NCBI RefSeq assembly: GCF_009184545.1
Contig: NZ_QJOW01000002.1
Location: 1-64,000 of the forward strand
Length of the DNA: 64,000 bases
Source: Halosegnis rubeus
Lineage (GTDB): Archaea; Halobacteriota; Halobacteria; Halobacteriales; Haloarculaceae
Direction: 5' to 3'
Part shown: positions 5,316 to 58,988 of the stretch, piece by piece
How the letters are laid out: the number at the start of each line of letters is the position of its first letter
Numbering within the stretch: position 1 is the first letter of the stretch
Position numbers and translations under genes: made by a program
The notes under the pieces: generated by a model
What the model saw: the letters and a program-made list of their open reading frames with translations, nothing else
What the model was told of the DNA's origin: nothing
Databases searched by the model: none

Positions 5316-5328
5316 ATGAAAAACGCAG

Positions 5329-5353
5329 CCGGCGCTCACTTCGTTCGCGCCGG
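5329..5353 (+). repeat. Second, shorter inverted repeat in the sufS 3' region
   Basis: CCGGCGC (5329-5335) pairs with GCGCCGG (5347-5353) around an 11-nt loop. The loop region reads GCTCACTTCGTTCGC, a motif that recurs in other intergenic structures of this window (34441-34460 in inverse orientation and 58964-58976 in related form). The 5354-5398 remainder of this intergenic stretch is AT-richer and shows nothing else. Confidence 0.5.
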
Positions 5354-34268: not shown

Positions 34269-34340
34269 GGGCGAGTAGATCAGCGGCAGATCGCTTCCTT
34301 CGCAAGGAAGAGGCCCGGGGTTCAAATCCCCGCTCGTCCA
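34269..34340 (+). tRNA. tRNA-Ala (anticodon CGC)
   Basis: 72 nt, cloverleaf verified by hand. Acceptor GGGCGAG pairs with CTCGTCC (one G-T pair), D stem GATC/GATC, anticodon stem CTTCC/GGAAG around loop TTCGCAA (anticodon CGC, codon GCG), T stem CGGGG/CCCCG with loop TTCAAAT, discriminator A. No intron and no encoded CCA. A short T tract (CTTTT) follows at 34346-34350, which may end transcription. Reading upstream there is a leader of about 100 bp after uS10. Confidence 0.96.
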
Positions 34341-34413
34341 TCGAAACTTTTGACGCCCCCACGCGCCGAGCGACGCGAGCGAGCCGCCTGGGGCGCATAC
34401 GCGAGCCACGGGC

Positions 34414-34493
34414 GGATTTGAACCCTACCAGTCGCGCGCAGCGAGCGAAGTGAGCGAGCACGTCTGGCTCCGGTTCACATCCCCGCTCGTCCA
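34414..34493 (+). repeat. tRNA-Ala-matched inverted/direct repeat element
   Basis: Three parts are visible. GGATTTGAACC (34414-34424) is the exact reverse complement of the tRNA-Ala T arm (34319-34329). A GC-rich core runs 34431-34466, starting GTCGCGCGCAGC and ending GCGAGCACGTCTG. Bases 34472-34493 copy the tRNA 3' end (34319-34340) with one mismatch in 22. The same core, with arms matched to a different tRNA, follows tRNA-Arg at 58091-58165. Could be a tRNA-linked mini-element, an attachment-site scar or a processing structure. Confidence 0.75.
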
Positions 34494-57981: not shown

Positions 57982-58057
57982 GGGCACGTAGCTTAGCTCG
58001 GACCAAAGCGTCGGACTTCTAATCCGAATATCGTGGGTTCGAATCCCACCGTGCTCG
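57982..58057 (+). tRNA. tRNA-Arg (anticodon TCT)
   Basis: 76 nt, cloverleaf verified by hand. Acceptor GGGCACG with CGTGCTC (one G-T pair), D stem GCTT/AAGC, anticodon stem TCGGA/TCCGA around CTTCTAA (anticodon TCT, codon AGA), T stem GTGGG/CCCAC with loop TTCGAAT, discriminator G. No intron and no encoded CCA. It is followed 34 bp later by a tRNA-matched repeat element. Confidence 0.96.
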
Positions 58058-58090
58058 TCATCTGCGAGCAAGACGAGTAGTGACGACACA

Positions 58091-58165
58091 GGGATTCGAA
58101 GCAGGGAGGTCGCGCGCAGCAAAGCGAGCACGTCTGACCGCAGTCCCACTCCCACCGTGCCCGTC
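58091..58165 (+). repeat. tRNA-Arg-matched inverted/direct repeat element
   Basis: Same design as the element after tRNA-Ala. GGGATTCGAA (58091-58100) is the exact reverse complement of the tRNA-Arg T arm (58038-58047). The core GTCGCGCGCAGC...GCGAGCACGTCTG (58109-58136) is shared with 34431-34466 but is 8 bp shorter in the middle. Bases 58150-58165 copy tRNA 3' positions 58044-58059 with one mismatch in 16. Arms follow the local tRNA and the core is constant, which rules out a simple duplication of one locus. Confidence 0.72.
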
Positions 58166-58700: not shown

Positions 58701-58988
58701 CGCGTGTCGTCGTTCACTTCGTTCCTCTCGCTCCGTCTCTGTTCAGCCTCGCGTTGCTTGGCTGAACTACTCCGCGTGTCGCTCGCAGCGCTCGCTCCCG
58801 CTCCCTACTTGTCCAAACTCACTCCGTTCGTTTGGACTACTCCGCGTGTCGTCACTCACTCGGTTCGTTCCTCCCGCTCCGTCTCTGTTCAGCCTCGCGT
58901 TGCTTGGCTGAACTACTCCGCGTGTCGCTCGCGGTGCTCGCTCCCGCTCCGTTCGTGTCCAAACTCGCTTCGCTCGTTTGGACTACTC
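58701..58988. repeat. Two-copy 146-bp tandem repeat, each with two hairpins
   Basis: Copy 1 is 58701-58842 and copy 2 is 58843-58988; equivalent hairpins are exactly 146 bp apart. Each copy holds GTTCAGCC...GGCTGAAC (58741-58767 and 58887-58913) and GTCCAAAC...GTTTGGAC (58811-58837 and 58957-58983). The last hairpin begins at the stop codon of the minus-strand aminopeptidase (58983-58985), so it is the natural 3' end structure of that gene, and the rest looks like duplicated copies of such a terminator region. No protein is supported, despite long open frames on the plus strand. Confidence 0.75.

Follow-up and report, generated by a model that had tools for sequence, protein, structure and literature searches.

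The 64,000-nt stretch of Halosegnis rubeus DNA analysed here (the window) carries, directly behind a tRNA-Ala(CGC) gene, a short sequence in which parts of that tRNA appear again, once inverted and once direct, which raises the question of what kind of element this is. The original prediction had described an 11-nt exact reverse complement of the T arm and a 22-nt match to the tRNA 3' end with one mismatch, and had offered three readings: a mobile mini-element targeting tRNA 3' ends, an integrase site scar, or a decoy or processing structure sequestering the T arm. Both matches were confirmed: GGATTTGAACC is exactly the reverse complement of GGTTCAAATCC, a part of the T arm of tRNA-Ala(CGC), and GGTTCACATCCCCGCTCGTCCA, which spans the T loop, the 3' strands of T-stem and acceptor and the discriminator, agrees with the last 22 nt of the gene at 21 of 22 positions (Table 1). 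The arrangement of inverted half, core and direct half was also right in its facts, but the interval given for it was too short, as the unit begins at the first base behind the tRNA and includes a hairpin ahead of the inverted arm. The whole unit is 153 nt long and consists of this first hairpin (hp1), the inverted T arm, an imperfect hairpin core and the direct copy of tRNA nt 52–73, in this order. Neither ARAGORN nor Rfam called a second tRNA at the locus, upstream of which lie genes for EF-2 (identified by sequence), homoserine dehydrogenase, EF-1A and uS10.

Table 1. Coordinates of the two tRNA genes of the window that carry units, and of the units and their parts.
Feature	Position	Strand	Basis
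Host gene tRNA-Ala(CGC)	34269–34340	+	ARAGORN; Rfam RF00005, 66.5 bits
Whole unit, first base 3' of the tRNA to end of 3'-end copy	34341–34493	+	Sequence
hp1 (first hairpin)	34355–34396	+	RNA fold of unit
hp1 apical motif GAGCGACGCGA	34368–34378	+	RNA fold of unit
Inverted T arm GGATTTGAACC, 11 nt	34414–34424	+	Sequence
Inner covarying stem 34427–34431 / 34464–34468, enclosing type A core	34427–34468	+	Base-pair count, 19 homologues
Apical motif GAGCGAAGTGA (GA-NC-GNA-GN-GA)	34443–34453	+	Sense/antisense motif counts in trailers
Direct copy GGTTCACATCCCCGCTCGTCCA of tRNA nt 52–73	34472–34493	+	Sequence; identity profile of copies
Second host tRNA, tRNA-Arg(TCT)	57982–58057	+	ARAGORN, Rfam
Second, decayed unit behind tRNA-Arg(TCT)	58058–58163	+	Sequence

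The focal unit is one case of a large family. In a DNA search, 45 of 60 relatives gave significant matches to the element, and the pattern TTTGAACC-N25-55-GGTTCA was matched in 45 of 60 relatives and not at all when read backwards. As had been anticipated, similar cores were found behind other tRNAs of these genomes, directly downstream of the gene and on its strand, with 18 isotypes and 36 tRNA species (ARAGORN labels) among the unit-bearing tRNAs of the set. Strict palindromes of the form GATTTGAACC-N28-58-GGTTCAAATC in named public genomes lay less than 300 nt downstream of a tRNA in 104 of 123 cases and directly upstream of one in 0 of 123; the remainder comprised 3 overlapping an annotated tRNA, 1 located 1.8 kb downstream, 14 on stretches without a called tRNA, and one that precedes a doubtful, intron-containing tRNA call in Bifidobacterium by thousands of bases. 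Strict palindromes from IMG/VR were rejected as units: they were mainly bifidobacterial-type prophage palindromes that lack unit cores, and the five that were scanned had no called tRNA. Such near-perfect palindromes, GCATGGATTTGAACC(A/G)TGGACCTCTGG...CCAGAGGTCCA(T/C)GGTTCAAATCCATG, were seen in bifidobacterial-type prophages (IMG/VR contigs L303, L304 and L306–L309; L077 and L078 from Bifidobacterium); they are unrelated to the units and possibly represent attachment sites built from tRNA halves.

A census of Rfam-detected tRNA genes was carried out in four genomes, searching for the gene's own 3' 20-mer in the 400 nt behind the gene and allowing up to 3 mismatches. Positives amounted to 7 of 43 tRNA genes in the own genome, 8 of 42 in a congener, and 20 of 50 and 19 of 44 in the other two (16–43%), leaving out five weak hits in the tRNA cluster of genome G011, where a few positives are neighbouring tRNA genes. 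The reversed 20-mer gave no hit in the four genomes, even at 5 mismatches, which places the recurrence of the tRNA end far above chance. A looser test (5 mismatches plus the inverted arm) matched the tails of other tRNAs at some loci because T loops are alike, and the strict count and the tracking test described below were therefore preferred. A covariance model of the hairpin, matching the focal unit at 34414–34482 with 90.8 bits, had hits in 141 of the 146 genomes searched from the class, with 1–27 copies per genome. In a phylum-wide draw it matched 31 genomes, all within the order, and none of 164 genomes outside it; G067 and G045, both of the order, gave no match. Rfam gave no match to a known RNA family beyond tRNA. 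The phage collection gave no match to the focal unit and only two plasmid records did so, both at plasmid-borne tRNAs (one behind a tRNA-Val, the other within a tRNA-Cys gene that belongs to an array of tRNAs), so that a viral or plasmid origin was discarded.

The limits of the repeated block were read from the identity between each copy and its own tRNA, which is 0.90–0.99 from the GG before the T loop through the discriminator base and drops to near background on both sides; the block therefore corresponds to tRNA nt 52–73. Within these sharp 22-nt limits the arms match the adjacent tRNA, as a tRNA-bound element had been expected to do. The acceptor part agreed with its own tRNA at 8.39 of 9 positions versus 3.60 of 9 for other tRNAs, with own-tRNA identities of 0.90–0.98 at most acceptor positions against 0.31–0.47 for other tRNAs, and one position, common to most tRNAs, reaching 0.83 with the latter. 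The inverted arm likewise follows the T-loop variants of its host: AATT at tRNA-Gly, TTCGAA at Arg, Leu and Val, C..G at Phe and Tyr, and A..T at Ser. A second kind of unit was also observed, in which only the acceptor part is copied and a hairpin directly precedes it (GCTCA[GC]TCCC + acceptor); examples lie downstream of G000 C9:297397, G004 C1:273356, G011 C1:1783582 and G046 C1:1387072.

The hairpins showed covariation. Among 19 of them belonging to one length class, 98.3% of the cells were paired, and six pairs presented two-sided changes, with 26 such cells. None of 500 shuffles equalled the observed values, in a test that is inflated by sequence kinship, and sliding of the partners abolished the pairing, a control that is indicative since these sequences had also served to derive the structure. 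The inner 4-bp stem appeared in many sequence forms with matching partners. In addition, the apical motif GA-NC-GNA-GN-GA, which often caps unit hairpins, was found 183 times in sense and 9 times in antisense orientation in the trailers, and this tip is much rarer away from tRNAs. Its interpretation as a general 3'-UTR hairpin was rejected, with 18 intergenic cases away from called tRNAs versus 56 near them and no clear orientation rule. On the question of RNA or DNA, wobble at the tip pair was suggestive only (G-U 7 versus A-C 1, p 0.07).

Comparison with close relatives revealed differences in the presence of units. Four of the ten unit-bearing tRNA loci of the own genome, where three of these four carry one unit and the fourth carries two, are unit-free in the congener G004, where the flank continues precisely from the tRNA 3' end. 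The unit behind tRNA-Ser(TGA) is also present in G002, with none directly behind the tRNA in G003, G004 or G005, and at another tRNA G002 has one unit more, next to the tRNA. Congeners G004, G002 and G005 share the focal unit; G003 has none behind tRNA-Ala(CGC) and a different downstream gene, so it counts as an absence without a matched unit-free site. Units from tRNAs of different isotypes can be aligned along almost all of their length. When the arms were removed and the genome labels permuted 300 times, the best relative was found in the same genome at another tRNA in 31 cases for the core (16.6, sd 4.3, with permuted labels; maximum 30) and in 29 for hp1 (17.2, sd 4.1; maximum 31), the latter excess being weaker, as at least 1 of the 300 permutations surpassed it. 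Arrays contain 1–4 units, with 2–4 common, and the tRNA-proximal copy is on average the least diverged. Presence and absence, same-genome relatives, isotype-spanning homology and array polarity together fit insertion at the tRNA 3' end. The initial readings were partly supported. Among them, the idea of a mobile mini-element is the best reading of the clean presence/absence and of the same-genome excess; the congener sites could represent either clean insertions or clean losses.

The tRNA-Arg(TCT) locus of the window is one that is unit-free in G004. Its decayed unit retains an inverted arm, GGATTCGAAGC, at 58092–58102, a type A-like core, and an acceptor copy at 58144–58163 with 4 mismatches in 20. 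Hairpins with the apical motif of the units were also seen elsewhere in the window. Two of them, GTCCAAAC-GA(G/A)CG(A/G)AG(C/T)GA-GTTTGGAC, lie on the minus strand at 58810–58975, about 750–900 nt from tRNA-Arg, on the opposite strand and outside any T-arm unit. Another, CCGGCGC-GAACGAAGTGA-GCGCCGG, at 5328–5352 on the minus strand, carries the trailer apical motif with no tRNA nearby, some 45 nt behind a called ORF of the same strand.

The explanation we favour, to which we give about an even chance, is that the units are non-autonomous insertion modules that enter at tRNA 3' ends, duplicate a 22-nt target and are kept in the trailer under constraint. It builds on the observed anatomy, exact block, arm tracking, covariation, strand specificity, clean presence/absence, arrays and multi-tRNA homology. 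The slow evolution of the copy and the placement of T runs, both described below, also speak for it. A module of ~110–150 nt would enter exactly at the 3' end of the tRNA gene, leaving the tRNA intact, and the insertion would duplicate the last 22 nt of the tRNA (52–73). Each module contains a pair of hairpins on the sense strand, and in the second of these (hp2) the outer stem arises from pairing of the inverted T arm with the T arm of the direct copy. The inverted arm may recognise the tRNA by pairing, as ssDNA or RNA, or may form a hairpin for an enzyme, and the module would be transcribed as the tRNA trailer, with the T-arm hairpin and the 3' copy under constraint. That both tRNA and copy match the host even though cores cross isotypes fits a duplicated 22-nt target better than an integrase crossover, and the tracking of the tRNA by the inverted arm suggests pairing with the target or a hairpin with the new copy. 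Against this proposal, the presence/absence pattern could be explained by loss through direct-repeat recombination, arm tracking needs pairing-based targeting or co-evolution beyond plain target duplication, and constraint on the copy is unexpected for a purely selfish insert. In addition, neither an enzyme nor an autonomous relative was detected, and no new insertion came to light. A 1.8-kb stretch separates tRNA-Ala(GGC) from its unit in Halorubrum alkaliphilum (L111, 2901–4711); it was discarded as an autonomous relative, as by eye it seems to encode a nucleotidyltransferase/HEPN pair and not a recombinase.

The main rival, which we consider rather improbable, is that the units serve the tRNA trailer as functional RNA modules, acting in 3'-end maturation, as released trailer RNA or in arm-swap regulation, and that they were spread by recombination and selected, their mobility being incidental. 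The sense-specific apical motif and the covarying stems speak for it, as does the slow evolution of the copy: in five orthologous unit pairs its identity was 96.4% without gaps, versus 78.6% for hp1, 87.8% for the core and 79.6% for the flank (copy versus flank, Fisher p 7e-6; for one of the five pairs, in which the arm was mislocated, the inverted-arm figure was unused and the hp1 and core gaps partly so). Two ortholog pairs share old mismatches to the tRNA, which points to selection rather than resetting by gene conversion. A tRNA change mirrored in the copy (C8:94467) was considered as a case of gene conversion and set aside, the orthology of that unit being too uncertain.

Indirect signs of transcription weigh on the same side. 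T runs are the usual archaeal terminators, and runs of at least 5 T had a frequency of 0.03 inside units versus 0.19 after the last copy, a difference to which composition may contribute; rarity inside and greater frequency after the last copy are expected if the units lie within the tRNA transcript. In the predicted lowest-energy fold of the precursor, the arms are swapped: the inverted arm pairs with the tRNA's own T arm, and the tRNA 5' acceptor strand with the distal copy. By this prediction the units could disturb or regulate precursor folding, and a decoy or processing structure sequestering the T arm, the third of the initial readings, is possible. However, a functional role in the trailer has to face that the majority of tRNAs lack units in all four censused genomes, that orthologous tRNAs vary in unit presence, and that the focal unit, folded by itself, shows no unusual stability (z -0.62). 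Moreover, the inverted acceptor is weakly matched (3.97 versus 3.33 of 8), which leaves a tRNA-like minihelix at the copy, as a substrate for RNase Z, unsupported.

Less probable still are integrase-dependent cassettes or their remnants, in which a tyrosine recombinase would cross over in the T loop, with the T arms as binding sites and arrays growing like cassettes at attI. The segment from the T loop to the 3' end is a classical integrase target in tRNA genes, and it coincides with the repeated block; the lesser divergence of tRNA-proximal copies and the extra G002 unit on the tRNA side would also agree with such growth. As in integron attC sites, the units have an imperfect strand-specific hairpin and polar arrays, and the layout of conserved outer stem, unpaired asymmetric spacer, covarying inner stem and variable tip resembles folded attC (PMC2727003). 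Unlike integron cassettes, they contain no cassette gene, no integron integrase is known for them, and their entry site is a tRNA gene. With respect to the attC R box (GTTRRRY / RYYYAAC), the T-loop sequence GTTCAAA keeps by eye only GTT and two of the four further positions. A simple Campbell crossover in the T loop would pass the acceptor strand of the donor to the recipient and so exchange acceptor strands between tRNAs, whereas tRNA and copy match the host instead. No integrase was found among the Pfam-annotated genes nearest the focal unit (two small downstream ORFs have no Pfam hit), nor was a larger element with the same ends found, so that the suggested integrase site scar lacks support. 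Finally, local tandem tRNA duplication, combined with template switching in which a hairpin at the end of the tRNA is copied, and with decay of the upstream parts of the extra tRNAs, would account for the order of direct block, hp1, inverted block, hp2 and direct block (a two-switch pattern), for the common arrays of 2–4 units, for the tRNA-like upstream part before 14 of 198 copies and for the larger tRNA remnants with inserted hairpins at two tRNA-Leu loci, but we consider it very unlikely: cores and hp1 sequences common to different tRNAs and genera cannot derive from local copying, and the orientation of core and apical motif is fixed. For its part, a tandem tRNA gene or pseudogene copy was rejected, since, those 14 loci excepted, identity before the copied 3' end is at background and no 5' half is recognisable.

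The same plan of tRNA, spacer, inverted T arm, core, and direct T arm with acceptor copy was observed outside haloarchaea with unrelated cores. It was present at two tRNA-Ser genes of the Woesearchaeota MAG SURF_65 (L503, L512), each copy matching its own acceptor, at tRNA-Asn of a Nanoarchaeia MAG (L504) and, with yet another core, at tRNA-Ala and tRNA-Gly in two archaeal MAGs (L501/L094 and L162), of which one is unclassified and the other bears the name Euryarchaeota. In two of the non-haloarchaeal groups the same core occurs at two or more host tRNAs. These unrelated cores in DPANN and other archaeal MAGs indicate that the architecture extends beyond the sequence family of haloarchaea. A Rhodospirillaceae MAG (L161/L510) presented a single case of the plan, which may be due to chance. 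More speculatively, and with doubt outweighing belief, the units could belong to a general class of archaeal micro-elements whose inverted T arm, as part of the element's own RNA or ssDNA, pairs with the T loop of a tRNA gene and so guides insertion at the tRNA 3' end, nt 52–73 being duplicated. Such structure-guided mobility would be new to the literature, and the architecture would have arisen or spread both in Halobacteriales and in DPANN, with cores that are unrelated.

An unusual tRNA locus was noted on the Haloarcula halophila plasmid NZ_CP119561.1 (L517, 224–2999; compare L432), where about 20 tRNA genes lie beside a TROVE-domain (Ro60-like) gene. One tRNA-Cys of this array is interrupted just before the T loop by an inserted hairpin that has a type A core, and it possesses a single 3' half, so it is either dead or dependent on splicing. 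A tRNA cluster of comparable density is found at G011 C1:2634200–2637900.

To our knowledge, the nearest known arrangement is that of the E. coli tyrT trailer repeats (rtT RNA), tandem trailer units that each end with the tRNA's own 3' terminal sequence and are known from one locus and one tRNA. The haloarchaeal units are likewise in tandem (1–4) and end with the tRNA 3' end. In contrast to the tyrT repeats, they occur at 18 isotypes and in almost every genome of an order, they contain an inverted T arm and two covarying hairpins, they show clean presence/absence, and they have no match to Rfam RtT. Repeats of the tRNA end behind a tRNA were already known, and the inverted-arm hairpin units of this order would be a new form of them.

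Proviruses, ICEs and integrated plasmids also target tRNA genes, in archaea through tyrosine recombinases (reviewed in PMC8371274). The units resemble them in being inserted at the tRNA 3' end with the tRNA intact and its 3' part (22 nt) repeated at the far end. However, at ~110–150 nt they have no room for a gene and no integrase lies beside the focal one; moreover, while each of those integrative elements uses one tRNA, the same unit core is found at many isotypes, with arms that follow each host. With the MITEs, PATEs and other small mobile repeats of Haloquadratum (PMC3119063) the units share being short, non-coding, hairpin-rich and dispersed in haloarchaeal genomes. Those repeats have their own termini and no tie to tRNA 3' ends, whereas the arms of the units copy the host tRNA and a 22-nt repeat is present. 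Element-owned terminal inverted repeats, typical of MITEs, were not found in the units, whose inverted arm follows the host tRNA, and kinship with transposons was sought through the phage and plasmid searches. Clean unit-free sites are seen, which may stem from gain or from loss, and the repeat is 22 nt long. No published description of the units was found in the open-access literature, and subscription journals might hold one.

In conclusion, a feature that occurs throughout an order, in nearly all haloarchaeal genomes searched, and lies behind up to ~40% of the tRNA genes in two of the four censused genomes appears to have gone unnoticed in the searchable literature. It is relevant to tRNA annotation and to the calling of att sites and genomic islands, as each distal copy looks like an attR. 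It is relevant, too, to models of archaeal tRNA maturation. The units would supply tRNA precursors with self-complementary T-arm copies, and they provide a natural setting in which to test how insertions are drawn to tRNA 3' ends.
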